This document shows, in pieces, positions 30,636-47,375 of a stretch of 64,000 nt of DNA; position 1 is the stretch's first letter, and every line of letters starts with the position of its first letter. This stretch comes from Peptoclostridium sp. GTDB lineage: Bacteria > Bacillota > Clostridia > Peptostreptococcales > Peptostreptococcaceae. The translations under genes and the position numbers were made by a program. Location: NCBI RefSeq assembly GCF_009881055.1, contig NZ_WXFG01000019.1:1-64000 (forward strand), given 5' to 3'. The notes under the pieces were generated by a model that had not been told where the DNA came from, ran no database searches, and worked only from the letters and a program-made list of their open reading frames with translations.

Positions 30636-31430
30636 CTATTTTTTGTCAACCCTGTCCAGCGCCTTTAATATTCCATACATTATGGCATGCGGCCTCGGCG
30701 GACATCCTGGAACGTAGACATCTACAGGCACTATGCAGTCAATGCCGTTTCTTGTGGCATAGTTGTCCCTGAATATGCCTCCGCTGCATGCGCATGCGCC
30801 TACAGCCACCACCAGCTTTGGATCTGGCGCTGCGTTGTATGTCTTTATGAGCGCAAGCTCCATGTTCCTTGTGGCAGTTCCCGTAACAAGCAGCATGTCG
30901 GCGTGCCTTGGCGAAGCGACAAAATGAATGCCGAGCCTTTCTATGTCATTGAATGGGTTGTTGAGGCCGTTTATCTCATAGTCGCAGCCGTTGCACGAGC
31001 CGGCGTCGACCTCCCTTATCTGAAGGCTCCTTCCGTATATTTTCTTTATCTTCTCTTTTACATCTCTTTGTATGAGCTCGTATCTCTCGTCCGGGATCTC
31101 CCGCTCCTCAATCACAAGCGGCGATTTCCTAAGCAGCAGTCTGTCCCTTTCTGCCAGCTCGAACTCGCTTGTCATTCTGGCCGCCCCGCTTGAGCACACA
31201 TCCTCGCATCTTGCGCAGAAAATGCACTCATCCAGGTTTATACCCATCTCGCCCTTTTCATCCCTGACTATGCAGCCTGACGGACATGCCTTTATGCACT
31301 CGTTGCACCCTGTGCATTTGGAATTGTCTATTTCGGGCTTTCCTATGAAAGGAGGCAAATCAAGAGGCTTCTTGGGATATTTTTGAGTTAGCCTTGGATA
31401 TTGAACAATTTTTTTTATCATTCCAAACAA
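30636..31430 (-). CDS. fused ferredoxin/NuoB-like small subunit of an Ehr-type complex
   Basis: About 264 residues. The N-terminal half is a HyfH/NuoI-like ferredoxin with two [4Fe-4S] motifs (CTGCNECIKACPSG and CIFCARCEDVCSSG). The C-terminal half is a HyfI/NuoB-like small subunit keeping all four ligands of the proximal cluster (CNGCD, GACACSGG, PGCPP). In hydrogenase 4 and complex I these are separate proteins, so this is a fusion. The start is TTG at 31430, 6 nt after GAGGTG, giving MFGMIKKIVQYPRL as in HycF/HyfH. Last gene of the operon. It should carry electrons from a ferredoxin-like donor to the large subunit. Confidence 0.88.
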   Translation of the reverse strand: MFGMIKKIVQYPRLTQKYPKKPLDLPPFIGKPEIDNSKCTGCNECIKACPSGCIVRDEKGEMGINLDECIFCARCEDVCSSGAARMTSEFELAERDRLLLRKSPLVIEEREIPDERYELIQRDVKEKIKKIYGRSLQIREVDAGSCNGCDYEINGLNNPFNDIERLGIHFVASPRHADMLLVTGTATRNMELALIKTYNAAPDPKLVVAVGACACSGGIFRDNYATRNGIDCIVPVDVYVPGCPPRPHAIMYGILKALDRVDKK

Positions 31431-31441
31431 ATATATCACCT

Positions 31442-33028
31442 CTACAAGTCATTTCCAGCATACGATAGATTGAAACTTTTGTTTATTAGTGGAAAATCAG
31501 GAACTATGTTTCCTCTTACAGCCTCGCAAAGCGCCGGCCAGTTGCAGAACGACGGGGTCCTGACCTTGTATCTGTATATGTCATTGTTTTTGCCCGACAT
31601 TATCCAGTGTATATTTTCGCCTCTAGGCGACTCTGTATATCCCAAAGCAGATGCATGCGCAGGAAGGGTCTCAAGCCTGCTGTGCACACTTCCGCTCTCG
31701 AGCATGTTTACTCCCTGCATTATAAGTTTTATTGACTGCAAGCATTCTTCAAGCTTCACATTAAGCCTACAGTTGACATCGCCATTGTTGTGCATTGAGA
31801 TTTCAAATTCCATGTCGCCGTAAGTCTCGTAAGGAAATGACTTCCTCACATCGAAGTGCACACCTGATGCCCTGCCTGCGGGTCCTGTTGCATTGAGGTC
31901 TATTGCCGCCTTTTTTTTGAGCGTGCCTGTATTTTCAACCCTGTCAATAAAGAGGCTTTTCGCCTTGATTATATCTATAGTTTCAAGCAGTTCCTTTTCT
32001 ATCTTCACCATCATATCGATTATCCTTTTTTCATTGCCTTCAATAAAATCCTTTCTTACTCCGCCAGGAGAATTGACGCTCCTTAAAAATCTTGAGCCGC
32101 AGACAGCCTCAATCATCTGATACAGCCAACCTCTCATCATCCTGAATTGGAATGTGGCAAAACCGTAGGCTACGTCAAGGCATACGCCTCCAAGGTCTCC
32201 CAGATGGCTTGTCAGGCGCTCAAGCTCTGCAAATATTACCCTTGTGATTTTAGCCCTTCTTGGTATCTGAACGCAAGCTATCTTTTCTATGGCCTGGCAG
32301 TAAGCCAATGAGTTTGAGAATGTCTCATCGCCCGATATCCGCTCTGAAACATAAAAGCACTTGTTGAAATCCATACCCTCGCACATTTTTTCTATGCCCT
32401 TATGGACAAAATACAGCTGGGCTTCAAGGTTTATTATGGGTTCCCCTGCAACGCTGAACCGGAAATGTCCTGGCTCTATAATGCCGGCATGCACTGGTCC
32501 TACCGGAATCTCATACACACCTTCGCCCTTGACCTTCATGAACTCCTGCCTTCTTGAAGCAAATGCAGGCTTTCTCCTTCTGTCGAAGCTTTTCCTGAGC
32601 GGAAATTCTCCCTCGGGCCAGTTGCCGTGAAGCACCATAGGCCTTAGGCTGTCGTTGCCTTCAGCCCTGATTCCAAAAAGATCATGAATTTCGCGTTCAT
32701 AAAAAGATGCCGAGTGTATTAGGTCCGAAACGGAAGGATAGCTCAGCTTGTCGCTGCCGAGTGCCAGCCTTGCTGTTATAAAGGCTCCTCTTTCTGCATC
32801 CGCAAATACATAGTAAATGGCAAACCCTCCTGATGGCAAAAGTGTTTCATCGCTGGCAAACATGCAGGCAAGCTTTTTGCCTTTGTCCCTGCATAGTAGC
32901 TCTGCCAGCCTCCTGACATCCGCCGCCTTGATGTCCAGCCTTATTTCATTTCCGTGCTCTATATTGCAATTCAAGCCGTTTTCACAAAAGCCTGCTCTTA
33001 GCTCTTCAATAATGTCTTCCATTTTCAT
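31442..33028 (-). CDS. NuoCD/HyfG-like large subunit lacking NiFe ligands
   Basis: 528 residues: a NuoC-like N-terminal domain (FYEREIHDLFGIRAEGND, about 109-127) fused to a NuoD/HycE-like large subunit (from about 165). In hydrogenases the L1 motif ERxCGxC and the C-terminal DPCxxC bind NiFe. Here L1 reads ERISGDE, so the two cysteines are Ser232 and Glu235. The C-terminal motif reads NLSYAG, so they are Ser522 and Gly525. All four ligands are lost without frame damage and the C-terminal cleavage site is absent. It cannot bind NiFe as a hydrogenase does; a quinone-like or unknown acceptor is possible. Confidence 0.9.
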   Translation of the reverse strand: MKMEDIIEELRAGFCENGLNCNIEHGNEIRLDIKAADVRRLAELLCRDKGKKLACMFASDETLLPSGGFAIYYVFADAERGAFITARLALGSDKLSYPSVSDLIHSASFYEREIHDLFGIRAEGNDSLRPMVLHGNWPEGEFPLRKSFDRRRKPAFASRRQEFMKVKGEGVYEIPVGPVHAGIIEPGHFRFSVAGEPIINLEAQLYFVHKGIEKMCEGMDFNKCFYVSERISGDETFSNSLAYCQAIEKIACVQIPRRAKITRVIFAELERLTSHLGDLGGVCLDVAYGFATFQFRMMRGWLYQMIEAVCGSRFLRSVNSPGGVRKDFIEGNEKRIIDMMVKIEKELLETIDIIKAKSLFIDRVENTGTLKKKAAIDLNATGPAGRASGVHFDVRKSFPYETYGDMEFEISMHNNGDVNCRLNVKLEECLQSIKLIMQGVNMLESGSVHSRLETLPAHASALGYTESPRGENIHWIMSGKNNDIYRYKVRTPSFCNWPALCEAVRGNIVPDFPLINKSFNLSYAGNDL

Positions 33029-33031
33029 GTT

Positions 33032-34504
33032 CTATCCCCCGGTAACAATTCTTTGGGCGTCCGTAAGAAGCTTAAGTACGCCATCAGGCATAAACACACC
33101 AGTCACAGTTATTACTCCAAGCATCGCAACTAGCACTATGTCAGCATACGGGCTAGGTTTCAAACTCTTTTGCTGTTCCCCTTTCGCATTCCCGTAAAAA
33201 ATCTTAAATAGCGTCACAGCAAAGCCGACAAACACGAGTGCAAGCAGGAAAAGAAAAGCTGCTCCCGCAAAATAGCTGCCATTCTTGAACAACGCTACAA
33301 CCATGCCGAGTTCGCTTGAAAATATGCTGAAGGGCGGCATGCCTGTAATTGCAAATATCCCCAGCATGAACACCACTCCGGTTATCGGCATTGACTTGTA
33401 AAGGCCCTTCACCTTGTAAATATCCTTGCTTCCGTACCTTTGATATATGTTTCCGGCTGAAAGGAAAAGCATCGACTTGGTGAAAGAATGGTTTATCATG
33501 TGCATTAGCGACGCAAGCACTGATGCCGGAGTGAACACTCCAAGTCCCAGGGCTATTATCCCCATATGCTCAATGCTGGAATATGCAAGCAGCCTCTTGT
33601 AGTCTCGCTGTGTAAGTATAAATACCGCGGCCGTTAATATTGAAAGCAGTCCTAGTGCCATAAGGGCTGCTCCTGCAAAGCTGCCGCTTCCCATTGCTTT
33701 GTTTAGTATGGCAAGGCCTCTCATTATCCCGTACATGGCGTTGTTGAGCAGTACTCCTGAAAGCATTGCGCTGACAGGCGACGGAGCCTGGCTGTGGGCA
33801 TCCGGAAGCCAGGTATGCATTGGGGCAAGACCGGCCTTTGTTCCAAATCCGACAAGCATGAATATGAAAGCCAGCCTTAGCAGATTGACATCAAGCTCTT
33901 TCGCATGCTCATACAGATAAGTCCATGATAGATCCGTTCCGGCATCCTTTATAATTCCTATGGATGAAATGTGAAGCAGTATTATCCCCAGAAGCGCTAT
34001 TGCTATCCCCACAGAGCATATGATTATGTACTTCCATGAAGCCTCCAGCGAACGCTTGTTGTTTTCAAAGCCGACTAGAAACACAGATGCCAGCGTTGTA
34101 GCTTCAATTGCTATCCACATTATCCCCATGTTAGGCGTAGTAAGAAGAAGTATCATAGAAAACATAAATGCAAACAGCAGCGAGTAAAATAGCCTGAGCC
34201 TCTTTATGTCTGTCTTGCCGCGCTCGAGCTCCTTCTTAAAGTAGCCTGCACAATAAATAATTACAAAAAGCGATACAGCCAGCACAAGATCAAGCACTAT
34301 TATGCTCAGGCTGTCCACATAAAAGTTCATTAAATATCTCTTATTTACATGTCCAAGAGCGGCCACATCAATCGAGAGTTTCACCCCTGCAGACAGCATT
34401 ATAAGTGCTGCCGCAATACCAAGCGCAAAAATCTGACTTGCGCGCTTTGCCAGCCAGAAGGCTACTATAGATACTAAAGGTAACAGCAACAGATATGATA
34501 TCAT
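33032..34504 (-). CDS. HyfF-like antiporter-type membrane subunit
   Basis: 490 residues, about 14 TM helices, of the NuoL/M/N-MrpD family. It keeps the functional residues: the TM5 glutamate in GIMWIAIEATTLASVFLVG and the TM7 lysine in FGTKAGLAPMHTWLPDAHSQ. Proton- or sodium-translocating subunit. The start follows AGGGGAT and the stop is 3 bases before the large-subunit gene. Confidence 0.9.
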   Translation of the reverse strand: MISYLLLLPLVSIVAFWLAKRASQIFALGIAAALIMLSAGVKLSIDVAALGHVNKRYLMNFYVDSLSIIVLDLVLAVSLFVIIYCAGYFKKELERGKTDIKRLRLFYSLLFAFMFSMILLLTTPNMGIMWIAIEATTLASVFLVGFENNKRSLEASWKYIIICSVGIAIALLGIILLHISSIGIIKDAGTDLSWTYLYEHAKELDVNLLRLAFIFMLVGFGTKAGLAPMHTWLPDAHSQAPSPVSAMLSGVLLNNAMYGIMRGLAILNKAMGSGSFAGAALMALGLLSILTAAVFILTQRDYKRLLAYSSIEHMGIIALGLGVFTPASVLASLMHMINHSFTKSMLFLSAGNIYQRYGSKDIYKVKGLYKSMPITGVVFMLGIFAITGMPPFSIFSSELGMVVALFKNGSYFAGAAFLFLLALVFVGFAVTLFKIFYGNAKGEQQKSLKPSPYADIVLVAMLGVITVTGVFMPDGVLKLLTDAQRIVTGG

Positions 34505-34508
34505 TCCC

Positions 34509-35162
34509 TTATCCCCTTAACCTCTTGAGTTTATTTATGTCAGTAGTTTCCAGTTCCTCGTTTATCTTGAACACCATTATCCCCATTATTATAACTGCGG
34601 TTATAAGGTCTATGAATATTCCCACATCCACAAGCACAGGCATGCCCCCAGAAGCGAAAAGTGCGGCCACAAATATGCCATTTTCCATTACGAGAAGTCC
34701 GACTATCTGGCCTATCGCCTTTTTCCTGCTTATCATGAAGAAAAAACCTATGAATATTACAGATACGGAGTTGGCCAGGTACATGCCAAGCTCAGTCGGT
34801 TTCCCGCCAATTGCCGATGATATCGAAAAATAGTTGAATACTGCTATGGCGCAGCTAACGAGCACCAGCAGCGGTATGTTGTAGAAAAAGTTCTTTTCAA
34901 CCTTGTAGTCCACATTTGCGAAGGTGTGGCTCAGAAGCTTCGGAATGTAGTAGACCTTGAGTGTCACTATGAGCAGGCACACAAACATTATTTCTATTGC
35001 GCCATGACCGCTTAAGTTCTCCATGCCCAGAATGAATGCCGCAATAGCCAAAAGTGCAGACTGAGCCTGGAATGTCCTTATGTAGGACTTGGTCCTCTTG
35101 TTGGCTACAAGCACAAAGCATGACAAGAGTATCAGTACTGACAATAATTGCATTATCTCCAT
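34509..35162 (-). CDS. HyfE-like membrane subunit
   Basis: 217 residues, about six TM helices, NuoK/HyfE type. A conserved acidic position lies in GLLVMENGIFVAALFASGG. Small membrane subunit linking the antiporter-like modules. ATG after GGGGGAGG. The gaps to both neighbours are under 5 bp. Confidence 0.85.
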   Translation of the reverse strand: MEIMQLLSVLILLSCFVLVANKRTKSYIRTFQAQSALLAIAAFILGMENLSGHGAIEIMFVCLLIVTLKVYYIPKLLSHTFANVDYKVEKNFFYNIPLLVLVSCAIAVFNYFSISSAIGGKPTELGMYLANSVSVIFIGFFFMISRKKAIGQIVGLLVMENGIFVAALFASGGMPVLVDVGIFIDLITAVIIMGIMVFKINEELETTDINKLKRLRG

Positions 35163-35163
35163 A

Positions 35164-36117
35164 TCAATTGCCTCCCCCTGTGAAATACTGCAGGAATCCT
35201 ACGAAAGAAGCGATAAAGGAAAGTGCCGCAAGATTCGGTATGCTGAAAAACCTAAGCTTGACAGTGCTAGCCTCTATGCATGCCACCGCTACTGAAATAG
35301 CTGCCACCTTCGCTACATAAGCAAGCAGCGAAACCATCAACACCGCAAAACCTGATCCCGCATAAACTAAAATACCTGCAGGTATGAACACATTGGCTAT
35401 TATTGTTATGAATATCAGTTGCTTTATAAGCGAAGCCAGCTCCATGAGCGCCAGGTACCTTCCTGAATATTCAAGAATCATGGCTTCATGCACCATTGTG
35501 AGCTCAAGGTGCGTAGAAGGGTCATCCAATGGTATTCTTGAAGATTCCGCTATAAGTATCAGCACTAGCGAAACCAGCAGCAGCATATAGGACGGCTGGA
35601 CTATGGCAGGCCCCAGCCGGGCCGAGTGGAGCATGATGTCCCCAAGCGAAGTGCTCTTGGCTGAGAATCCCAGGGTAATCACTGCAACTATAAGTGACGG
35701 CTCGAAAATCGCGCTTATCATCATCTCCCTGCTGCTGCCCATGCCTCCGAACGTGCTCCCCGTATCGAGCCCTGATATTGCCATGAAGAATTTCCCAAGC
35801 AGGAGTATGTATATTACCATGAAAATATCCCCGGGCAACGGCTTCATGGCAATTCCCGGCAAAACCGGAACAAAGGCGCATGCCGCTGCAGCAGATGCAA
35901 ACACAATGTATGGCGTGGCAGTAAAAACCCACGATGCCTGATTGGATACAACTGTATCCTTTGTAAAAAGCTTTATGATGTCAAGATATACCTGATATAC
36001 AGGAGCCCCCTTCCGCTTCTGCGTAAAGGCCTTTATTTTTTTTATAATCCCGCCTACCAGCGGCGCTATGAGTATGAAAAGTGCCATCTGAATAACATAG
36101 TATGCCAAATCCGCCAA
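35164..36117 (-). CDS. HyfC/NuoH-like membrane anchor subunit
   Basis: 317 residues, eight or so TM helices. It carries the NuoH/HyfC hallmark acidic loop ESSRIPLDDPSTHLELTMVH, which in complex I faces the large subunit and starts proton translocation. A second landmark is GSTFGGMGSSREMMISA. The start is TTG after GGAGGG. This subunit should join the peripheral electron-transfer arm to the antiporter-like subunits. Confidence 0.9.
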   Translation of the reverse strand: MADLAYYVIQMALFILIAPLVGGIIKKIKAFTQKRKGAPVYQVYLDIIKLFTKDTVVSNQASWVFTATPYIVFASAAAACAFVPVLPGIAMKPLPGDIFMVIYILLLGKFFMAISGLDTGSTFGGMGSSREMMISAIFEPSLIVAVITLGFSAKSTSLGDIMLHSARLGPAIVQPSYMLLLVSLVLILIAESSRIPLDDPSTHLELTMVHEAMILEYSGRYLALMELASLIKQLIFITIIANVFIPAGILVYAGSGFAVLMVSLLAYVAKVAAISVAVACIEASTVKLRFFSIPNLAALSFIASFVGFLQYFTGGGN

Positions 36118-36130
36118 TTGAATCCCTCCG

Positions 36131-38176
36131 TTAAACCAAGGTGTTGTATATCATGAAGGCAAACACAGTCACAAAAATATACATCAGGTATCCGTGTATG
36201 CTTCCTGTCTGTACTGAAATCTTAGCTATCACAGATATCCGGCTGAAGAATTCTGAGACAGGTTCGTACATGTATTTTTCAAATATTCTCTCAGTCTTGA
36301 GCGTATATTTGATGCTCTTGGGATTGTACCTTATGCTTCCTTCGTCTATCTGCAGCTCCCTTACCGGTCTGAAGAGAAGCTTCAGAACTATTCCTATTGG
36401 ATTAGAAAAACCTGTCGATGAATACTGCATCCTCGGATTTAGCCTTTCAAAACCGCAATCCCACGTATTGTAAACCCTGCTTTGCCTCTTACCGCCCACG
36501 GCTGTCATTATAGCGGCTATTGCAAGTGCCGCCGCAGCACCTGCTATAACTGCTGCTAACGGGGTTATATTAGATGCGTCCAGACTCAGGCTAAATACAG
36601 GCGCAACCCCAAATCCCCCAAGGCTCTGTGATATTGAAACCCCGCTGAGTGAGTAAAACGCGCTGTCTGCTATACCTATCAGTGGTCTTGGAAACATACC
36701 CATTGCGAGGCAAAGCAGAGCCAGAAAGCCGCTTGAGATGTACATTGCAGCAGGCACTTCCTTAGCCTTTTGTGCATGCGAGCTTCTCGGGCTTCCCATA
36801 AAGCAAATTCCTATGAGCTTGACAAAGCAGCCTGCCGCAAGCGCCCCTGCAAGGCCAAGGGAAGCTGCTCCCATTACAGCCGCCAAGCTGCTTGTTCCTA
36901 TGGCAGAGCCTATGCTCACTATGAACGCCTGGTATGTCAGCCACTCTCCTATGAATCCGTTGAAGGGAACTGCCGCCGAAATAGAAAGCGATCCTACAAG
37001 CATGAACAGTCCTGTAAGCGGCATTGTCTTCATAAGCCCCCCAAGCTCATCCATCTGCTTGGTGTGGGTTGCATACTGCACAGAACCCGCGGACATGAAA
37101 AGCAGACCCTTGAAAATTGTGTGATTGAAGCAGTGTACCATTGCAGCAGTCAGAGCCAGCGCCTCAAGCACTGCATTTCCAGCGTAAGCAGCCATTCCTG
37201 CAATGCCTATGCTCATTAATATGATGCCTACGTTTTCTATGCTGCTGTACGCCAGCATGCGCTTTATGTTTCCTTCCATATATGCATATGCCACACCGAT
37301 TACCGCAGAAAGTATGCCTACAACAAGAATCGTAACTCCCCACCATAAAACGTCTGCTCCGAGGATTTCAAACACAAAACGCAAAATACCGTATATGGCA
37401 GTCTTTATCATTATCCCCGACATTAGCGCCGACACATGGCTTGGAGCCGCAGGGTGAGCATACGGCAGCCATATGTGAAGCGGCACTATGCCCGCTTTCG
37501 CTCCGAATCCAATCAGGAACATCACGAATAGAGCGTTCTTTATGCCCTCTGGAAGCGATGCAGCCGCAGCCGTAAACTCAAAGCTGCCTGTATAGGCGTA
37601 TATCACTGCAAACGCAGCCAGCAAAAAAGCCGTTCCGATATGCGTCATAATTATATAGAGCGTACCTGCGTGCAGAGTTTCTTTCTTTTCGGATTCGTAC
37701 ATCACTAAAAAATATGAAACGAGCGACATGAGCTCCCAGGCAACAAAAAACGTAACCATGTTTCTGGCAGCAAATACGAATATCATTGAAGTTATAAAAA
37801 TAGCGTATAAGGAATTTAGAAGATATGTATTGTTCTTTTCGTAATAATGAGAAACGTAACCCATAGAGTAAATGGATACAGTTATAGCAAGAAGCGAAAG
37901 GGACAGGATGAAAAATGCTGATATGTTGTCTAGTCCTATTGAAAAAGTCAGATATGGTATATTGGTGCTTGCCGTATCAAGCAGCATATCGTTTGCATTT
38001 CCACTCAGCTTTGTCAAAGATAAGCTTAAGCCGAGAATACCACCTATGCTGCAAAGCACCCCTGTGATATGGTTGGCCAATGCCTGCTGCCTTTTCATCA
38101 GCAGCGGCGCTACTGCTCCTATTAGATATACCAAAATCATTATTGAGAATAATTTTTCCAAACTTGCCATTTCCAT
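36131..38176 (-). CDS. HyfB-like antiporter-type membrane subunit
   Basis: About 681 residues, roughly 16 TM helices, NuoL/HyfB family. First gene of the six-gene operon. The pump residues are intact: Glu in MVTFFVAWELMSLVSYFLVM and Lys in GFGAKAGIVPLHIWLPYAHP. The C-terminal third has TM segments plus the HyfB-type stretch TWDCGFERLNPRMQYSSTGF. The ATG at 38176 follows AGGAGG. No hyfD is present between hyfB and hyfC, so the complex has two antiporter-like subunits, not three. Confidence 0.9.
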   Translation of the reverse strand: MEMASLEKLFSIMILVYLIGAVAPLLMKRQQALANHITGVLCSIGGILGLSLSLTKLSGNANDMLLDTASTNIPYLTFSIGLDNISAFFILSLSLLAITVSIYSMGYVSHYYEKNNTYLLNSLYAIFITSMIFVFAARNMVTFFVAWELMSLVSYFLVMYESEKKETLHAGTLYIIMTHIGTAFLLAAFAVIYAYTGSFEFTAAAASLPEGIKNALFVMFLIGFGAKAGIVPLHIWLPYAHPAAPSHVSALMSGIMIKTAIYGILRFVFEILGADVLWWGVTILVVGILSAVIGVAYAYMEGNIKRMLAYSSIENVGIILMSIGIAGMAAYAGNAVLEALALTAAMVHCFNHTIFKGLLFMSAGSVQYATHTKQMDELGGLMKTMPLTGLFMLVGSLSISAAVPFNGFIGEWLTYQAFIVSIGSAIGTSSLAAVMGAASLGLAGALAAGCFVKLIGICFMGSPRSSHAQKAKEVPAAMYISSGFLALLCLAMGMFPRPLIGIADSAFYSLSGVSISQSLGGFGVAPVFSLSLDASNITPLAAVIAGAAAALAIAAIMTAVGGKRQSRVYNTWDCGFERLNPRMQYSSTGFSNPIGIVLKLLFRPVRELQIDEGSIRYNPKSIKYTLKTERIFEKYMYEPVSEFFSRISVIAKISVQTGSIHGYLMYIFVTVFAFMIYNTLV

Positions 38177-38262
38177 TGTTGCTCCTCCTGTCATTATTTC
38201 ATCCAGTTGCTGAGGCGGCCATATATACATCCATCTGAAAACGTACTGAAAACCACACAATA

Positions 38263-38411: not shown

Positions 38412-39299
38412 TTGAATAAAATGCGAGAAGTCTCAAATGAAGGCAGGGAGCTTATAAACAGCTTCATTTCATCACTTTCAGAAAAAAATCTTAACTCAAA
38501 GACGATTCAGGAATACTCTGCCGACCTTAAACACTTCATAGGATGGCATGAATATCAGGGCATGGATACATGCCAGAATGTGCTCATATTTTCTTTCGAT
38601 CAGATATGCGTCAGAGAACTTGAAACATACAAGGAGGCAATGCAGAATCTTAGCCTTAAACCTTCGACTATCAACAGAAGGCTATCAACGATTAAGCTTT
38701 TCTTCGACTGGGCGTATCACACAGGCATTTCAGGACGTAATCCGGCTAAGCACATTAGGCTCAGCCCTGTGCAAAAGGGCAAGCCGCGCGAAATCACGCA
38801 GGATGAAGAAAAACGCCTCCTCGATACGGTAAAGTCCCATGGCACTCTGCGCGACCAGGCTATGTTAAAACTCATGATACATACGGGAATTCGCGTAGGA
38901 GAAGTGTGTAGCCTTACGATTTCCGACATAAGCGTATCCAAAAAGAGCGGCTCGGCAAGCATTTCTTCGGGAAGCCAGACAAGGAAAATCCCGCTTAATT
39001 ATGCCTGCGCTTCTGCCCTTGAAAGGTATGTCTCTTCTCAAGACGCAAAGGGGGACGCTCCTCTTTTCCGCTCCGAGAAAACCGGGGAAAAACTGACCGA
39101 GAGGGCCGTGCGGTATATAGTCAGGAAATACATGGTGCTTGCGGGCCTTGAAGGTCTGAGCGCCTACTCGTTCCGCCACAGCTTCGGCTACAAGAACGCT
39201 CAGAGTACTAACCTGCACAAGTTGGCAGGCATAATGGGCCATAGCAACTTAAGCACCACAATATCGTATGTCAAGGCACCTGAAGAGGAGAATAAATAG
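38412..39299 (+). CDS. tyrosine recombinase (XerC/D-like), orphan
   Basis: 295 residues with the two-domain architecture of Xer/phage integrases: an N-terminal SAM-like DNA-binding domain (about 10-95) and a catalytic domain. Catalytic residues: Arg in HTGIRVGEVCSL, then SAYSFRHSF, then MGHSNLSTTISY with the nucleophilic Tyr. The usual first His of HxxR is Tyr here (YSFR). TTG start after GGAGGT. There are no phage, transposition or excisionase genes nearby and the gene ends at its own terminator. It may be a chromosomal Xer-like enzyme or a leftover of a mobile element. Confidence 0.88.
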   Translation: MNKMREVSNEGRELINSFISSLSEKNLNSKTIQEYSADLKHFIGWHEYQGMDTCQNVLIFSFDQICVRELETYKEAMQNLSLKPSTINRRLSTIKLFFDWAYHTGISGRNPAKHIRLSPVQKGKPREITQDEEKRLLDTVKSHGTLRDQAMLKLMIHTGIRVGEVCSLTISDISVSKKSGSASISSGSQTRKIPLNYACASALERYVSSQDAKGDAPLFRSEKTGEKLTERAVRYIVRKYMVLAGLEGLSAYSFRHSFGYKNAQSTNLHKLAGIMGHSNLSTTISYVKAPEEENK

Positions 39300-39428: not shown

Positions 39429-40085
39429 TTATAATTTTGACTCCATGTACTTTTCGTAGCCTTTGCTTCTAAGATTGCATGCCGGACATTCCCCGCACCC
39501 GTCTCCGATGATACCGTTATAGCATGTGAGCGTCTCGTTTTTTATTACATCCAAAACCCCAAGCCTATCTGCAAGTCCCCATGTCTGCGCCTTGTCTAGC
39601 CACATAAGCGGAGTGTGCATAACAAAGTCATATTCCATAGCGAGGTTTGTTGTGACGTTGAGCGATTTAACGAATATGTCCCTGCAGTCTGGATAGCCGC
39701 TGTAGTCACTTTGCGACACGCCTGTGACTATGTGCCTGATGCCCTTTTGTTTTGCGAATATGGCCGCAAAAGTGAAGAACAGCATGTTTCTTCCGTCCAC
39801 AAATGAGTTTGGAAGGCTGCCCTCCTCGACTTCCTTGTCGACCTCCATGTCAGCTCTTGTTAGCGAGTTGGAAGTAATCTCCCCAAGAAGTCCCAGATTC
39901 ATCGAGTGGTGCTCAACCCCGTACTTTTGGCATATGGCTTTTGCGCAGTCCAGCTCGAGTACATGCTTTTGGTTGTAGTCGAACGAAAGGGCAACTACAT
40001 CGGCAAATCTATTCTTAGCCCAAAAGAGACATGTGGTGCTGTCCTGCCCGCCGCTGAAAACAACTAGCGCTTTTTCACTTTTCAT
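39429..40085 (-). CDS. queC: 7-cyano-7-deazaguanine (preQ0) synthase QueC
   Basis: 218 residues. Converts 7-carboxy-7-deazaguanine to preQ0 with ATP and ammonia. PP-loop [14 protein letters not shown] at the N-terminus and the zinc-binding C-terminal [16 protein letters not shown] after GGGGGG. Last gene of the operon, with 1 bp between it and queE. Product feeds queuosine in tRNA. Confidence 0.96.
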
Positions 40086-40086
40086 G

Positions 40087-40755
40087 CTATACCCCCCTTT
40101 TGTCTTTGTCCCATATGAACTTATGCAGCTGCAGCTGCAGGCTAATACCGTTGATATAGTGGCTTTTCATGTACTCTGCAATCTGGGCAGGCTCTATTTC
40201 ACCAAATACAGGGCTTAAGTAGACTCGAGTTTTCTTGTCAAGGTCATACTCCTCGATTACTTCTTTTGCCCTCTCTAGGTCGTCAATGCTGCCTACAACA
40301 AACTTGACAGTGTCCTGCCTGGATACGCAGCTGAGGTTCTCCGTATCCATGTATGCTTCCATTCCGCTGCTTCCAAGCTTATAGTCCAGCGTGAATGACG
40401 GCCTCCTGGGCGATATGTTCAAGAACGGCTCTATGTCGATACTGCCGTTTGTCTCTATCTCCACATCAATATAGCTGTCATCTGCCAATCTGTCCAGAAG
40501 CTCCCTGATGCCGTATTGATTGAGCGGTTCTCCTCCCGTGAGCGTTACATTAGATATCCCTGTTGATTTGATGTATTCATGGATATCCTGCGCACTCATC
40601 TTTTCAGCTTTTACATCCGCCTCGTTTGCCCACTTTGTGTCGCAGTACCTGCAGCTTAGGTTGCAGCCCGCAAACCTTATGAACACAGCCAGCTGCCCCG
40701 CCTTTGGACCTTCGCCGTTTATGCTTGCAAACTTTTCAACTACATTATACTCCAT
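40087..40755 (-). CDS. queE: 7-carboxy-7-deazaguanine synthase QueE (radical SAM)
   Basis: 222 residues. Radical SAM enzyme that contracts 6-carboxytetrahydropterin to 7-carboxy-7-deazaguanine. The cluster motif is [13 protein letters not shown] (CxxxCxxC), preceded by [17 protein letters not shown] and followed by [16 protein letters not shown] after GGAGATGA. Sits between queD and queC. Confidence 0.95.
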
Positions 40756-40767
40756 GATGTCATCTCC

Positions 40768-41187
40768 CTATTCCTCGTATGTCGCGCAGTTTTTTGGCGT
40801 TTCGTACACAGTGACTCTTTTCACCGCAAAACCAGTCTCCTTTATCTTGTCAAAAAAGAACTTGGAAAAATTTTCTGCCGTAGGGCGGAAATCCAGCTCT
40901 ATTACCCTGAAGCCGTCCTCGACAAGACATTCAAGCGTCTTGCTCCTAATTGAGCCTTTTTGTATCAGCAGGGCGTGGTCAAGCGAATCTACAAGTCCCT
41001 TCAGGACAGTCTTGATGTCCGAAAAGTCTACGACCATGCCGTCGTTTTGCCCTCCCTGGAGAAGCTCCTGCGATGCAACCTCAGCATGGACGTTCCATCT
41101 GTGTCCGTGTATGTTAGCGCATTTGCCTTCATATCCTGCAAGAAAATGCGCACTGTCGAAGCTTTGCTGCGTTTTAATTATATACAT
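40768..41187 (-). CDS. queD: 6-carboxy-5,6,7,8-tetrahydropterin synthase QueD
   Basis: About 139 residues. Converts 7,8-dihydroneopterin triphosphate to 6-carboxytetrahydropterin. Zinc ligands lie in FDSAHFL and CANIHGHRW, with an active-site DFSDIK/DHALL pattern. I chose the ATG at 41187, which overlaps the activase stop region. An ATG at 41199 is also possible. Translationally coupled to the activase gene. Confidence 0.93.
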   Translation of the reverse strand: MYIIKTQQSFDSAHFLAGYEGKCANIHGHRWNVHAEVASQELLQGGQNDGMVVDFSDIKTVLKGLVDSLDHALLIQKGSIRSKTLECLVEDGFRVIELDFRPTAENFSKFFFDKIKETGFAVKRVTVYETPKNCATYEE

Positions 41188-41188
41188 A

Positions 41189-41977
41189 TTATTTCCCATG
41201 CCTTTCCAATGCTTTTTTTGACGCCAGCCTGGCCGCATAGTGGCAGCAGCCTATGGCTCCGTTAAACTGAGGATTGTCAAGCTTTATAACGCTGTCATAG
41301 TCATTCGCAAGATATCCCGTGAGTGCTGCGTTATTTGCCACCCCGCCCGACACTACAAGGACTCTCCCCTTGAAATTGGCAAGCATGGGCTGCAGCCTCT
41401 TGTACATCGAGTGGTTCACGCCGGCGCACAGACTCTCAAGATCCACTCCCTCTGCTATCTTGCCTATAAGCTCTGATTCTGCGAACACGGCACACGTCGA
41501 GCTGAGCTCTATCGGATCATTCGAATGGCTCGCCATTTCATCAAGCGAAATTTCAAGAACATTTGCCATGTTTTCAAGATACCTGCCGCACGATGCCGCG
41601 CACTTCTCGTTCAGCTCGATGTCGGTTATCATTCCCTTTTCAACTCTTGTGACCTTCACATCCTGACCTCCTACATCAAGCAGCACGAAATCATCAAGAC
41701 CAATCTGTGCAATCGCGCCGTGCACATGCGCCTTTATTTCATTTATCTGGACAAAGTCAGTCATATTGGTATTGTTTTTACCGTAGCCTGTGGAAACCGC
41801 CATGTCATAGCCGCTTACTCCTAGCGCATTTGTATTAAGCCTTATGCCGTTACTATAGCTGCAGTAGTTTCTGTAAAATGACATTGTGCTGTATGACCGC
41901 ATGTCTTCTATTTTACCGTCATTCATCATTACAAGCTTGACCTGCCTGCTGCCAAGGTCAATTCCAAGTGTCCTCAT
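41189..41977 (-). CDS. ATP-dependent 2-hydroxyacyl-CoA dehydratase-type activase (BadF/BcrA/HgdC family)
   Basis: About 262 residues, ASKHA fold. The phosphate loop is LGIDLGSRQVKLVMM. The two cysteines expected to bridge a [4Fe-4S] cluster at the dimer interface lie in NEKCAASCGRYLENM and SSTCAVFAESE. A second phosphate loop VVSGGVANN is visible. This family uses ATP hydrolysis to fire a low-potential electron into a partner. The ATG overlaps the stop of its partner gene by one base (TAATG). It lies directly upstream of queD, in one operon. Confidence 0.9.
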   Translation of the reverse strand: MRTLGIDLGSRQVKLVMMNDGKIEDMRSYSTMSFYRNYCSYSNGIRLNTNALGVSGYDMAVSTGYGKNNTNMTDFVQINEIKAHVHGAIAQIGLDDFVLLDVGGQDVKVTRVEKGMITDIELNEKCAASCGRYLENMANVLEISLDEMASHSNDPIELSSTCAVFAESELIGKIAEGVDLESLCAGVNHSMYKRLQPMLANFKGRVLVVSGGVANNAALTGYLANDYDSVIKLDNPQFNGAIGCCHYAARLASKKALERHGK

Positions 41978-42978
41978 TACAGAGCTTCCTTTCTGTCGCA
42001 CAGCATGTCGAGGAATGCCTCAAGTCTGAGCCTTGTCCTGGCGTCGAGCCTGTCCGACTTGTCTCCCTCGATGTTTATGATTGGGATGTCTATACGGCTT
42101 TTTATTATTATGTCGTCGAGCGCCCTGTGGCAGAAAGCCTGGGTGTAGTGGATAAGGCCGTCAAGCCTTCTTTCCTCTATCTGCTTTTTTATCTCCTGCA
42201 GCCTGAAATCTATGTCGTACGGATATGTGTAGTCGGCATACTGCTCGTATATACTCCTTGCAGCGCCTGATCTAGGAAAAGCAAACTCCCTCTGCACCTC
42301 GTTGTATACTATCCTTGCTCCCTGCTGCTCTGTGAATTCATACAGGTCAGCCATCATAGGCGGAACGCCGATATAGCCCAGCCTCAGCCTAGGCTCGTCA
42401 ATTTCTCTGGCCTCAATTTCACAAAGCTTGCTGTCAAGCTCCGCTTCGAAGCCCTCCAGATCCGAGTTGAAATCGCTCATGCCAACCTGGTAGAGGTGGT
42501 TTTCAAAGCCGCTGGCCTTGGAAGTTTTCCAAGTGAGCTCATCGAGCCTTGCAGCCTTGTTTCTTAAGCCTTGAAGCCTTTCCCTTACTTTCTCAGTGTC
42601 TGCCGCATCAACGCCCAGCAACTTCATGAAGCTTTCTATCTCAGCCTTTATGTTTTCAACACTTCTGGCATGGGGATAAGAAAACGGTATGACATCTATT
42701 CCCCTTAGCCTTAGTACCTCGGTGAGCGACGCGGTATTGGAGCAGTCTCCTTGGACTACTCCAACTATTTTTCTGATTCCGTTTATCATGCAGGCGCCGT
42801 ATAGTCCCTTTATCCAGGCACACATGCTCTTTGGGAATCCATCCCTTTCGGCTACATCGATATAGCCCTGGCAGTCATTGCTTGTAACAAAAATATTATT
42901 CAGGTCTACCGGAGCAAAGCCAGCTGCAATAATAGCTTCCACCGGAACCGTTGTTGTTATTCCTATTTTTTCTTTCAA
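41977..42978 (-). CDS. HgdB-like 2-hydroxyacyl-CoA dehydratase / double-cubane cluster protein
   Basis: 333 residues. Single D-component-like protein of the 2-hydroxyacyl-CoA dehydratase superfamily. Likely cluster cysteines are Cys36, Cys53 (SMCAWIKG), Cys63, Cys79 (GDCSNT) and Cys283 (TQAFCHRAL); the family end motif TRLRLEAFLDML is present. True dehydratases need two different components; here there is one plus the activase. That is the arrangement of double-cubane cluster proteins, which reduce small molecules with ATP. TTG start after AAAGGA. First gene of an operon that continues into queDEC. Confidence 0.85.
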   Translation of the reverse strand: MKEKIGITTTVPVEAIIAAGFAPVDLNNIFVTSNDCQGYIDVAERDGFPKSMCAWIKGLYGACMINGIRKIVGVVQGDCSNTASLTEVLRLRGIDVIPFSYPHARSVENIKAEIESFMKLLGVDAADTEKVRERLQGLRNKAARLDELTWKTSKASGFENHLYQVGMSDFNSDLEGFEAELDSKLCEIEAREIDEPRLRLGYIGVPPMMADLYEFTEQQGARIVYNEVQREFAFPRSGAARSIYEQYADYTYPYDIDFRLQEIKKQIEERRLDGLIHYTQAFCHRALDDIIIKSRIDIPIINIEGDKSDRLDARTRLRLEAFLDMLCDRKEAL

Positions 42979-43021: not shown

Positions 43022-43160
43022 TAAAAAAGGGCGCAAAAGCCCCTGCAAACAAAAAATCCATAAGCTACGCCATATGGATGAGCCCTAGTTTTGTTTATAG
43101 ACAGGATGGTACGAATGAACTGTCTTATATGATTTTTTAAGTGGTTTTTGAAGCAATCTG
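43022..43160 (-). ncRNA. structured 5' leader, preQ1-I-like riboswitch candidate with terminator
   Basis: On the minus strand, right after a good promoter: a first stem AGACAG/CTGTCT (43125-43120 with 43104-43099) whose 15-nt loop has GTTC and ACC, then an A-rich tail ATAAACAAAACTAGGG very like the tail of preQ1-I riboswitches. Alternative stems follow: AAACAAAA with TTTTGTTT (43096-43089 with 43054-43047), ATCCATA with TATGGAT inside it, and then GGGGCTTTTGCGCCC with six T's (43043-43022). The GGGC next to the tail could pair with GCGCCC of the terminator. The second pseudoknot helix of preQ1-I was not convincingly found. Confidence 0.45.
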
Positions 43161-43189
43161 AGTATATCACAAAGGCGGATTGTGTGCAA
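43161..43189 (-). promoter_or_regulatory. sigma-A promoter of the reductase-queDEC operon
   Basis: On the minus strand TTGCAC, a 17-bp spacer and TATACT. It would start transcription near 43154, leaving a leader of about 175 nt before the first gene. Confidence 0.7.
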
Positions 43190-43451: not shown

Positions 43452-44444
43452 TTATTCGACTCTTATTCCCAGTTCCCTGCTGTAGGTAGGTTGGTTTTGA
43501 GTAGGCTTCTTGGCAAGTACTATACGACATTCTCCAGCCTTCAATGGGATGAATGAAATTTCCAGCATTTCTCCGACGGTTTCTGCCCCTACTGGTTCTA
43601 GTACATCCCCCTGGACGCTGTACTCCCAGTCGCTGCCGCTGAGTGTTATTTTAAGCATGTCATCCATTTTGATTGTTGTCGTGCCTGTATTATCCATTTC
43701 TCCATCTACATATACCACATTGGGCGCTGCGAAGGATTTTGCTGCAAATTTTTCATGTGCTAAGTCAGACCCATCTACCTCGTTAGACTCCACCATGCCG
43801 GGATGTGAATCAGCATTCAAGCTCGACATGGCAATTGTCTGCTCGTCAGCAACTTCGCTATTTTCTGTGGCCGCTGATGATTCTTCCTCCTTTTGCTGAG
43901 TACCTTCTGCATTTTTTTCGCTCGCTGAAACTTCTTTTATAATATCTTTGCCGGATATATCTGCCAATCGGTGCTCTTTGTCACCTTCTCGAATACTGTT
44001 TTTTTCCACATTCTCACCTGTAGCTTTTTCCACTCCGTCTGCAGCCGATGAATCGCTCTCTACTCTTGTTTTCATCGACAGCTCCTGGCCTGCTTTATCC
44101 GGCAAGCCTGCATTTTCGAATATTGCATAGCTCCCTGCAAGTACAAGAAGGCTTGCCGCAATGTAGGCCATCCATCTGTAAGGCTTTAATCCTCTAATTT
44201 TGCTTGTCTGAGACACAGGTAAGCTTATTTGTTCAAGCTTCTCTCTGAGACTTTCATCAAAACCTTCTGGAAGAGGCTCTTCCTCTAGGCTTTGCAAACC
44301 TGCTATTATGTCTGACAGTGCTTCGTATTCCGCTTTGCATGATTCGCATTCTCCAATGTGGTTTTCCAGCGCTTTTTTCTCTGCTTCTGAAAGCGCTCCG
44401 TCTATATATAAGTCCAAACTTTCTAGACATTCCCTACATTTCAT
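43452..44444 (-). CDS. zinc-finger anti-sigma factor with extracytoplasmic chagasin-like domain
   Basis: 330 residues. N-terminal zf-HC2 anti-sigma domain with MKCRECLESLDLYIDGALSE and the HIGECESCKAEY motif (Cys3/Cys6, His-Cys-Cys). One TM helix near 91-107 (WMAYIAASLLVLAGSYAIF). Then a long Ser/Glu-rich linker. The last 80 residues are a beta domain (SGSDWEYSVQGDVLEPVG ... FIPLKAGECRIVLAKKP) that resembles chagasin/I42 peptidase inhibitors. It should hold the co-encoded sigma at the membrane. Its start overlaps the sigma gene by 11 bp. Confidence 0.82.
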   Translation of the reverse strand: MKCRECLESLDLYIDGALSEAEKKALENHIGECESCKAEYEALSDIIAGLQSLEEEPLPEGFDESLREKLEQISLPVSQTSKIRGLKPYRWMAYIAASLLVLAGSYAIFENAGLPDKAGQELSMKTRVESDSSAADGVEKATGENVEKNSIREGDKEHRLADISGKDIIKEVSASEKNAEGTQQKEEESSAATENSEVADEQTIAMSSLNADSHPGMVESNEVDGSDLAHEKFAAKSFAAPNVVYVDGEMDNTGTTTIKMDDMLKITLSGSDWEYSVQGDVLEPVGAETVGEMLEISFIPLKAGECRIVLAKKPTQNQPTYSRELGIRVE

Positions 44445-45030
44445 TCATATCACCTCTTCTCTCCAGCTCTTGATATATCTCCCGCAGCCTCCTGCGGCCT
44501 CTGCTGATGCGTGATTTTACTGTTCCTATGTTTGCATTCGTAATTCTCGATATCTCGTCATAGCTAAAACCCTGTATATCCCTTAGTATAACAGCAGCCC
44601 TAAAGTCGCTCTCAAGCAGGTCGAGAGCCTTTTTTATTTCATCCCTCTTTATACTCTTCTCCATTACGCTCTCCGGCGTCTCTTCAGCCCGCAGGTTTTC
44701 TATCACTCCCGCCCCCGGGCTATCTTCCCCTGCATCAGTTATGTATTTGTACCTGCCCTCTTTTTTGAGATGGTCAAGGCAGCAGTTCACTGTAATTCTG
44801 TATATCCATGTGGAAAATGACGATTTACCCCCGAACTTCCCTATTGATTTATATACTCTTATGAATACCTCCTGCGATACATCGAATGCATCATCCCTGT
44901 TTTTGACCATGCGCAAGGCTATGTTGTACACCCTCTGTTTGTGTGCTTCAATAAGCCTCTCGAAAGAATCTACATCGCCTTCCTGCGATAGACTTACGAG
45001 CCGCATCTCATCCAAATTGATATTGTCCAT
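44434..45030 (-). CDS. ECF-family RNA polymerase sigma factor
   Basis: 198 residues. Region 2 is visible as DVSQEVFIRVYKSIGKF and TWIYRITVNCCLDHLKKEGR. Region 4 is FSYDEISRITNANIGTVKSR followed by ISRGRRRLREI. It is of the SigW/SigV-like group controlled by zf-HC2 anti-sigmas. Directly followed by, and overlapping, its anti-sigma gene. A cell-envelope stress role is inferred. Confidence 0.93.
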   Translation of the reverse strand: MDNINLDEMRLVSLSQEGDVDSFERLIEAHKQRVYNIALRMVKNRDDAFDVSQEVFIRVYKSIGKFGGKSSFSTWIYRITVNCCLDHLKKEGRYKYITDAGEDSPGAGVIENLRAEETPESVMEKSIKRDEIKKALDLLESDFRAAVILRDIQGFSYDEISRITNANIGTVKSRISRGRRRLREIYQELERRGDMNEM

Positions 45031-45218: not shown

Positions 45219-47375
45219 CTAATTATACTTCTCGAACGCTTGCTTTAATATATAGTATGAAGGTTTTAACCTTTCATGATATGTGGGCTGCTCCCAGGCA
45301 TCCCAGCTGTAGAAATCCATTCCGATCTCTGCGATAGCCTTGCCACCTTTTACTACGCCGCATCCGATGTTGAACCCTTCTGTCTTTTGCGGCTTAAAGC
45401 CCTCATTTTCATACAAGTCTCCCATTATTGCCTTTGTTGACGGATCCATTACATTGAGAAGCTGCCAAGGTATTCTTATTTCCACATTGCCATTCTTCTC
45501 ACAGAAATCAGCTAGAGAATTGAATGACTCGTGTTTGGGGTTTGCATCTCCATAAGCAAGCAATCCCGTTTCATATTTCGAGAAAGGCACGGTCTTCTTG
45601 TCCTGAGGAAGATATATTTCCCTGCCAAGGCACAGATACATCGGATTAAATATTCCGCTGCCCGACTTTTTGTATTCCGGATTGGAATCTATCATTTTCA
45701 GCCTCTCTGCATACATATAGTTGAAAGAGTCGTAATATGCGTCTACTAGTATCCTTGAATCTTTTTTACCGCTTATTTTTACGAGAAAATCTGCAGGCTT
45801 TTGAAATTTAGCATCGCTTGCGCTATGATTCAAGTTTCCCTGCCCCTGCAGTATATCAATCGGTATTAATAGCTCGTCTTTTTCAAAATCATAATTCTTT
45901 GCAGCCGCCATCAAATATATGTATTTTTCATCTGATTTTACATGAAGCCTGACATTCTCATCCGAGTATACAAGCTGTGAATCTTCCCACTCATCAACAT
46001 CCCCGTCGACATAGCACACGCTCTTTTTCTGGCCCGGGTCAAACGCAAGAAGCCCAAACTGTTGCTCATTTGTCTGAGGATTTGACCAATATGGCCTTGT
46101 GTCAGGCAAGTCAAAGTCCGCAGTATTCCATGTCCTCTTGAACCATTCGTCCTGCCATGCAAATACAATGCCTCCGCAGTAGCCTTCTTCGTATATGTCC
46201 TTAAGGAGGTCTGCCTGTATGCCACCCTGCTTAGTTTCATCAAGATTGCCCTGGTTATAACCTGAATAAAGGCTTTCATGAGCCATGCCTCTTGACGCCG
46301 GCACGCCAAACTCAGCCACTAGCACTGGCACTGTATGCTGCTTGAAAAGGTCTCTCAAGTATGCCCTATACGTATTCACTTTGCCGCTTTCATCCTTGAA
46401 CGAGGCATACTCCCTTTGGTAGCTCATGAAATCCGGATAGTATGGATAGACATGGTAGGATGCAAAAACTCCGGGAGTGAAAAGTTCAGTCTTTTTAATA
46501 TGCTCAGTATCAACCTGAGCCATGTCCTCCTGCTCAAACGGCTCGTTGGGATGCTCGAGCGTATCTGTAGTGAGCCAGTTGGTAAAGCTCAAAGGTCTTG
46601 CCATCCCATATTCTGAAGCCTCATACCCGATTACGCTGTCACCCACCTCGCACAGAAATGCTTCAAAAGGAGAGGCATTCTGTGTATATAAGTATTTGCC
46701 GCTGTACGAAGCTTTATCCGGATTTGCATTATTAGTAGCAGTCACAAAATTTGGATCCCACTCAATCCCAAGTATCCATCCAATTACGTACCTTGAAACA
46801 TCGCTTTTATATGTGCCGCTTGCAAATCCAGGTTTCGAAGGAAGGCTTGCTTTACCGTGAATTATGTCCACAAGGTCCTTAGTGTCCTTTATGAAGTTGT
46901 TTTTTATCTTTCCATTGGCTGCATATGCATCCTTTAAGGTTTCGATGTCATCCTCGTTTATCCATACGCCCTGCATCAGATAAAGGGGCTGTGACGAAGT
47001 CCTGTTGAAGTCATAGAGCGCATCGTAGAATTCGGGCTTCATCGTGGTGTAGACCCTTATTACTTCGGCGTTCATCTCGCTTATGTAGGCAAACCATCTC
47101 ATATACTCTTCTTTTGTTATGGCCAGCTCCCCCGGAAAATGACCCGGTTTTCCTGCTCCAATGTTGACACCTTTGAGAAACTTCTTTTCCCAATCCCCTC
47201 CGGAATAGACATAAAACGATCTGCCTTCGATTTTAGCGGCATGCTTGATTCCATTGGCATCTTCAGGTATTTTTTCATTATCCAAACCGGATGTCTTTGC
47301 CCCGCATCCTGTCATTACCGCCAGCATGCTTACAATTAACACGGCAGAGGCAATCTGCTTTATATTCATTTTCAT
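45219..47375 (-). CDS. glycoside-hydrolase-like (TIM-barrel) lipoprotein
   Basis: 718 residues. Signal peptide with lipobox MTGC. N-terminal (beta/alpha)8-type domain (about 55-440) starting FLKGVNIGAGKPGHFPGE, with SEMNAEVIRVYTTMKPEF and a candidate nucleophile Glu in VPVLVAEFGVPASRG, and VIGWILGIEWDPNF as a candidate acid/base region. The C-terminal part (about 455-715) is a beta domain, perhaps carbohydrate-binding. Resembles GH2/GH5-like barrels but no substrate can be assigned. Extracellular, lipid-anchored. Monocistronic. Confidence 0.7.
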   Translation of the reverse strand: MKMNIKQIASAVLIVSMLAVMTGCGAKTSGLDNEKIPEDANGIKHAAKIEGRSFYVYSGGDWEKKFLKGVNIGAGKPGHFPGELAITKEEYMRWFAYISEMNAEVIRVYTTMKPEFYDALYDFNRTSSQPLYLMQGVWINEDDIETLKDAYAANGKIKNNFIKDTKDLVDIIHGKASLPSKPGFASGTYKSDVSRYVIGWILGIEWDPNFVTATNNANPDKASYSGKYLYTQNASPFEAFLCEVGDSVIGYEASEYGMARPLSFTNWLTTDTLEHPNEPFEQEDMAQVDTEHIKKTELFTPGVFASYHVYPYYPDFMSYQREYASFKDESGKVNTYRAYLRDLFKQHTVPVLVAEFGVPASRGMAHESLYSGYNQGNLDETKQGGIQADLLKDIYEEGYCGGIVFAWQDEWFKRTWNTADFDLPDTRPYWSNPQTNEQQFGLLAFDPGQKKSVCYVDGDVDEWEDSQLVYSDENVRLHVKSDEKYIYLMAAAKNYDFEKDELLIPIDILQGQGNLNHSASDAKFQKPADFLVKISGKKDSRILVDAYYDSFNYMYAERLKMIDSNPEYKKSGSGIFNPMYLCLGREIYLPQDKKTVPFSKYETGLLAYGDANPKHESFNSLADFCEKNGNVEIRIPWQLLNVMDPSTKAIMGDLYENEGFKPQKTEGFNIGCGVVKGGKAIAEIGMDFYSWDAWEQPTYHERLKPSYYILKQAFEKYN

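Follow-up and report, generated by a model that had tools for sequence, protein, structure and literature searches.

A variant preQ1-I type I riboswitch predicted upstream of a queuosine operon headed by a candidate preQ0 reductase in Peptoclostridium

The window considered here is a stretch of 64,000 bp from Peptoclostridium sp. (contig NZ_WXFG01000019.1). On its minus strand lies a five-gene operon headed by an HGD-D family protein and a BadF/BcrA-type ATPase activator, followed by queD, queE, and queC (Table 1); as the initial annotation had it, the reductase pair constitutes the first two regulated genes. The queC gene is convergent with a gene for an XerC/XerD-like tyrosine recombinase (38412-39299, plus strand), and a gene run at 30636-38260 (minus strand) resembles, judging by translations, a hydrogenase-4/complex I-like membrane complex. 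Upstream of the leader, also on the minus strand, are genes for an ECF-sized sigma-70-family factor and an adjoining zf-HC2 anti-sigma-like protein (43452-45030), and for a lipoprotein-like protein of 718 aa that matches no Pfam family at E 0.001 (45219-47375).

The operon is preceded by a structured leader, and every element described in the initial annotation is present on the minus strand, i.e., the promoter with a 17-bp spacer, the stem, loop and tail, the competing pairings (L3 with its complement and GGGC with GCCC), and the hairpin with six T's, whose T-run ends 45 bp upstream of the TTG start at 42978. The promoter was also found in a consensus pattern scan, one base off, with about one such site expected by chance in the region. 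Within L3, AAACAAAA (43096-43089) has its complement in TTTTGTTT (43054-43047). A search of the window for the motif pattern gave a single hit, compared to none in 100 shuffles. In single-sequence folding, the fold energy of the window leader is not above chance relative to shuffles (z -0.58); it is the conservation of the leader, described below, that is decisive for its reality, fold stability alone not being above chance. The internal hairpin is trailed by at least six U's, both in the window (43056-43051) and in the equivalent hairpins of relatives, and tandem terminators are possible.

Table 1. Coordinates of the leader elements and of the operon genes in the window
Feature	Position	Strand	Remarks
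Whole leader element, promoter to T-run	43023..43189	-	
Promoter	43161..43189	-	-35 TTGCAC 43189-43184, 17-nt spacer, -10 TATACT 43166-43161; read directly
preQ1-I-like aptamer	43083..43125	-	
P1 5' strand AGACAG	43120..43125	-	All 78 leaders have GACAG; covariation of P1 in the wider set
Aptamer loop UUCAUUCGUACCAUC (DNA TTCATTCGTACCATC)	43105..43119	-	U6, U7, C8 ... A12 ... U16, C17; 15 nt vs. the usual 12
P1 3' strand CUGUCU (DNA CTGTCT)	43099..43104	-	Pairs with 43125-43120
Tail ATAAACAAAACTAGGG	43083..43098	-	
L3, A-rich, AUAAACAAAA, 10 nt	43089..43098	-	8 nt pair with 43054-43047 in the alternative fold
P2 tail CUAGGG (C31, U32)	43083..43088	-	C31 in 78/78, U32 in 77/78 leaders
AGGGCUC	43080..43086	-	Predicted arm capturing the terminator 5' arm in ligand-free nascent RNA
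Internal hairpin AUCCAUA...UAUGGAU, then U6	43056..43079	-	Computed folds; equivalent ACUACC...GGUAGU hairpin in relatives
UUUUGUUU, complement of L3	43047..43054	-	In relatives, 3' strand of the antiterminator; most leaders have a UUUUGUUUAU-type complement
Intrinsic terminator GGGC-UUUUGC-GCCC-UUUUUU	43023..43042	-	Hairpin 43042-43029, six T 43028-43023
HGD-D family (HgdB/DCCP-like) protein, proposed preQ0 reductase	41977..42978	-	333 aa, TTG start; PF06050
BadF/BcrA-type ATPase activator, electron donor to the reductase	41189..42001	-	PF01869 and TIGR00241 over cut-off
queD, 6-carboxytetrahydropterin synthase	40768..41238	-	TIGR03367 over cut-off
queE, 7-carboxy-7-deazaguanine synthase	40087..40755	-	TIGR03963 over cut-off
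queC, preQ0 synthase	39429..40085	-	PF06508 271.7 bits; TIGR00364 over cut-off

Orthologs of the first gene were found in 13 of 61 genomes, the window's own genome included, and in all 13 the leader lies upstream of the orthologous reductase gene. A covariance model built from these 13 leaders, the window among them (hereafter R1), recovered the leader 70-370 nt before the reductase gene at 75 of the 80 best named-genome loci. The matches span Clostridia and Fusobacteria, including Clostridium, Tepidibacter, Caloramator, Ruminiclostridium, Propionigenium, Psychrilyobacter, and others, and R1 matches were present in 98 of the 291 genomes sampled from the class. Three loci (L104, L116, L170) contain a second copy of the leader, located before a separate que operon or an activator gene. 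No leader was found in 8 of 20 genomes of the class with the reductase (families f33 and f63); the respective loci, L051-L058, represent a reductase subclade with neither a recognizable preQ1 leader nor an Rfam match.

At the Rfam gathering cut-offs, no family is accepted in the window. The covariance search with RF00522 that the initial annotation had called for leaves the window well below threshold (15.1 bits vs. the cut-off of 39), and at permissive settings (E<=10) this match aligns over the full length of the model. The same model assigned 25-27 bits, again below 39, to six of the 13 close-relative leaders, and none of the best 20 R1 loci reached the gathering cut-off; among 20 weaker R1 loci, it was passed only by two aptamers with a 5-bp P1 and an 8-nt L3. 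Hence the leader has a divergent geometry and is not a standard Rfam member. The preQ1-II (RF01054) and preQ1-III (RF02680) covariance models had no match in the window. A match to the rimP leader (RF01770; 20.2 of 47 bits) includes the terminator and was discarded as a terminator artifact.

The assignment to a particular aptamer class is based on the ligand-contacting positions. In the type I preQ1-I structure, two stacked preQ1 molecules contact U6, U7, U16, C17, A30, and C31 (PMC8752633). All six bases are invariant in the 78 reductase-group leaders and are present in the window, as are the UC directly 5' of the P1 3' strand (AUC followed by CUGUC) and the CUA in the 3' tail (CUAGGG). In 77 of 78 leaders P1 has 6 bp and L3 has 10 nt, as against the 5 bp and 8 nt of comparison aptamers passing RF00522 (e.g., L017-L029), which supports the divergent aptamer considered possible in the initial annotation. 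The alignment of the 13 close-relative leaders has the form ATAAGACAG-UUCGUAACCAUC-CUGUCUAUAAACAAAACUAGGG, in which the standard 12-nt loop UUCGUAACCAUC closely matches the known consensus. The window and its sister genome deviate from it by a loop insertion of 3-4 nt; compared with the sister genome, the window loop has three nucleotides inserted, and an A adjoining A12 is missing. The resulting 15-nt length recurs in 13 of the 78 related leaders, one of them (L127) with an identical loop. This insertion explains why the second pseudoknot helix had been judged unconvincing, an assessment that needs correction, as it reflects a recurring 15-nt form in the window's lineage. The P2 bases are conserved as in the crystal structure and vary too little across leaders for the predicted P2 pseudoknot to show covariation.

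Most reductase leaders share a common layout of the expression platform: the aptamer, a short hairpin, the L3 complement UUUUGUUUAU, and the terminator GGGCA...UGCCC-U(5-8). A terminator-like hairpin was found in 72 of 77 leaders, the search sometimes choosing the internal hairpin instead. In unconstrained best folds of nascent RNA lacking the terminator 3' arm, CUGUCUAUAAACAAAA, comprising the P1 3' strand and L3, pairs in many leaders with UUUUGUUUAUGGGGCAG, a segment containing the terminator 5' arm. Capture of this arm by P1'/L3/tail was computed for 64% of 69 leaders, compared to 22% when the linker alone was shuffled. In the window, the minimum-energy nascent fold (-18.2 kcal/mol) pairs AGGGCUC with 43042-43036 and captures all four nucleotides of the terminator 5' arm, with P1 still formed. 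The P1'/L3 antiterminator of the relatives is not the best fold here and has a weak duplex energy, so that in the window capture needs the tail pairing instead.

This weak antiterminator, together with an RF00522 score below that of every other leader scored (15.1 vs. 25-27), would be expected if the window copy were a decayed riboswitch, its ligand binding abolished by the loop insertion and the missing A and its operon constitutive. We regard such decay as very unlikely: the contact bases, P1, the terminator, and the promoter are all intact, the 15-nt loop occurs in 13 leaders and once in identical form, and the window scores 62.9 bits with R1, although it is itself one of the 13 training sequences.

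In the reductase group the P1 core GACAG/CUGUC is invariant (78/78), beyond what a plain stem needs. Together with the sub-threshold Rfam score, this might point to a different kind of attenuator, binding a protein or a new class of ligand, whose likeness to preQ1-I is accidental. The invariance had first suggested a protein-binding element; that candidate was abandoned in view of the varied-P1 matches and of the second role that the P1 3' strand has in the alternative fold. Indeed, lower-scoring R1 matches have other P1 stems (GUGAG/CUCAC, GUCAG/CUGAC, GAGUG/CACUC, GUGUG/CACAC, GUCGG/CCGAC) with the loop and tail unchanged. Across 73 matches P1 is 100% paired, with compensatory changes in five of the six pairs and a covariation score of 0.511 compared to 0.096 in shuffles (0/500). 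The alignment was fitted to the model, which biases it towards the structure; slid controls, scoring at most 0.078, exclude this as the whole explanation. These variants covary fully and precede the same queuosine genes, and the pairing of the P1 3' strand with the terminator arm gives it a second partner, which may explain the invariance of GACAG/CUGUC within the reductase group. A chance resemblance is accordingly given very little credence, the least among the readings considered.

The genes under R1 aptamers are the expected preQ1/queuosine regulon. Among the 73 matches, the first gene most often encodes QueT (46 cases), followed by the HGD-D reductase and a nucleoside hydrolase (7 each), a YhhQ-type protein (PF02592) and a RaSEA-like radical SAM protein (3 each), and QueC, QueF, and FolE (one each); four first genes have no assignment, one of them for lack of sequence. 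Assignments were made by Pfam or NCBIfam on representatives and by BLAST clusters, QueC being read from sequence. The RaSEA-like proteins (L064, L070, L074) have no Pfam match; they are possibly queuine-salvage lyases similar to QueL. At L065, L067, L172-L178, and similar loci, the aptamer precedes queT and a Shine-Dalgarno sequence (CUAAGGAG, CUACGGAGG) directly follows the tail; these are a translational version of the switch.

Association with a reductase also raises the question of whether the ligand of the RNA is preQ0, or its signal the preQ0/preQ1 ratio, with the aptamer tuned to the substrate of the enzyme. Class I aptamers do bind preQ0, albeit more weakly (17-fold for Tte; PMC11625349), and the loops of the reductase group mostly end in AUC, compared to CUC or similar in Rfam-passing aptamers. 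On the other hand, this aptamer also lies ahead of queT and queF, genes for which preQ1 makes sense as the signal, and the bases of the type I beta site, which is expected not to accommodate preQ0 easily (PMC11625349), are kept. Tuning to preQ0 thus appears highly improbable.

Based on the contact bases, P1 covariation, the queuosine gene context, and terminator-arm capture, all in support of the transcription-attenuating preQ1-I-like switch proposed in the initial annotation, we conclude that the leader is a putative transcription-terminating preQ1-I type I riboswitch with a variant geometry missed by the Rfam threshold, and that its predicted ligand is preQ1. The closest characterized counterpart is the type I aptamer of Carnobacterium antarcticum (PMC8752633, RF00522), which has the same H-type layout with P1, a UUCG...UC loop, an A-rich L3, and a CUA tail, identical ligand-contact bases, and preQ1-related genes downstream. 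The leaders described here differ from it by P1 of 6 bp and L3 of 10 nt (vs. 5 bp and 8 nt) with scores below the RF00522 cut-off, by the 15-nt-loop subgroup that includes the window, and by the transcriptional terminator. The preQ1-I type II riboswitch of the B. subtilis que operon likewise acts by transcription termination on a preQ1 biosynthetic operon, and its A-rich L3 is part of the antiterminator (PMC11625349). However, it has AC rather than UC before the P1 3' strand, binds one ligand, and controls an operon with QueF.

The protein encoded by the first gene matches PF06050 (E 4.7e-36; 125.5 bits vs. the cut-off of 28.4) and belongs to the HGD-D/BCR-I superfamily. Its predicted fold resembles the double-cubane cluster protein (DCCP) and 2-hydroxyacyl-CoA dehydratase (Foldseek hits 7yzm, 3o3n, and 6eno; TM about 0.77), the nearest solved structures being those of DCCP (7yyl, 6eno). 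Both by profile and by fold, the DCCP/DCCP-R system (6eno, 7yyl, 7yzm) is the closest solved relative, also formed by one HGD-D subunit and one ATPase activator; the physiological substrate of DCCP is not known (PMC11971306). The activator gene adjoins the reductase gene at all 80 loci. In contrast to these likenesses, identity to DCCP is about 20%, the score with the double-cubane anaerobic reductase model NF040772 (43.3 of 350 bits) is far below the equivalog cut-off, and there are only three invariant cysteines, Cys53, Cys79, and Cys283, each kept in all 92 sequences. A double-cubane cluster requires more than three cysteine ligands. The cysteine pattern therefore suggests a single [4Fe-4S] cluster in the HGD-D reductase, which fits better with a site of the BzdO type, a three-cysteine [4Fe-4S]-OH2 site (PMC11971306). 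Acetylene, hydrazine, and azide are all reduced by DCCP (PMC11971306), which makes it chemically plausible that a nitrile could serve as substrate. In the open-access literature searched, we found no report linking the HGD-D family to queuosine.

The function of the pair is indicated by its distribution. QueF (PF14489) has no match in the window genome, though the operon makes preQ0 (queD, queE, queC), and TGT, QueA, and QueG or QueH are present in all 13 close genomes; hence the vacant step is preQ0 reduction. Among 56 QueC-positive genomes from two genome draws, the reductase pair is present in 30 and QueF in 25; the two never co-occur, and a single genome lacks both (Fisher p 5e-15, with genomes treated as independent despite kinship). 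The single genome with neither (G052) has its QueC in a Dpd DNA-modification cluster, for which a need for preQ1 is not expected; a DpdC-DpdA fusion gene is located there (L211 3419-5800, minus strand) beside queC, queD, and folE2, in a 7-deazaguanine DNA-modification cluster. The two enzymes are swapped even within genera, i.e., in g85 (reductase in G099, QueF in G201) and in g104 (reductase in G126, QueF in G223 and G303). One genome (G114) has the reductase and lacks QueC. QueF, an NADPH-dependent preQ0 reductase, would share with the pair the proposed reaction and pathway slot, and in some relatives queF is under the same riboswitch (L176); the two are from unrelated sequence families, and no genome in the sample has both.

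By its distribution and context, the pair is a strong candidate to act in place of QueF as a non-orthologous, ATP-driven preQ0 reductase. The family is versatile, including dehydratases and benzoyl-CoA reductases (PMC11971306), and the pair might serve epoxyqueuosine reduction or an unrelated reaction while merely sharing the operon. This seems unlikely, given the exclusivity with QueF across QueC-positive genomes and the presence of QueG or QueH in all close genomes; the latter led us to reject the role of epoxyqueuosine reductase. We consider it likely that the HGD-D reductase acts with its activator as an ATP-driven iron-sulfur nitrile reductase converting preQ0 to preQ1 under preQ1-I feedback control, in many Clostridia as well as in some Fusobacteria.

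The proposed mechanism combines these predictions. When preQ1 is scarce, L3 and the tail would pair with the terminator 5' arm, allowing RNA polymerase to read through; the pairing strand would be AGGGCUC in the window and the P1 3' strand with L3 in most relatives. Bound preQ1, probably as two stacked molecules as in characterized type I aptamers, would stabilize P1 and the P2 pseudoknot so that L3 and the CUA tail are held in place; the terminator would then form and transcription would stop. In the window, ligand-driven P2 would take the CUAGGG strand and free the terminator. The switch would therefore be of the OFF type, repressing the operon that makes preQ1, in which the first two genes, most likely encoding an ATP-driven iron-sulfur preQ0 reductase, stand in for QueF. 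Since the pair likely makes preQ1, the RNA would sense the product of its own operon. Taken as a whole, this reading, an OFF-type variant of preQ1-I type I repressing a preQ1 operon whose reductase pair likely replaces QueF, is in our view very probably correct.

The standard RNA family model misses a geometry that R1 matches in 98 of 291 genomes, which leaves preQ1 regulation under-annotated in these anaerobes. Here, the RNA points to an enzyme: the QueF step is apparently filled by a protein of the same family as benzoyl-CoA reductases and the double-cubane protein. If true, this would be a biological ATP-dependent nitrile reduction by an iron-sulfur enzyme, would provide a physiological role for this branch of the family, and would correct those calls of preQ1 auxotrophy that rest on the absence of QueF.
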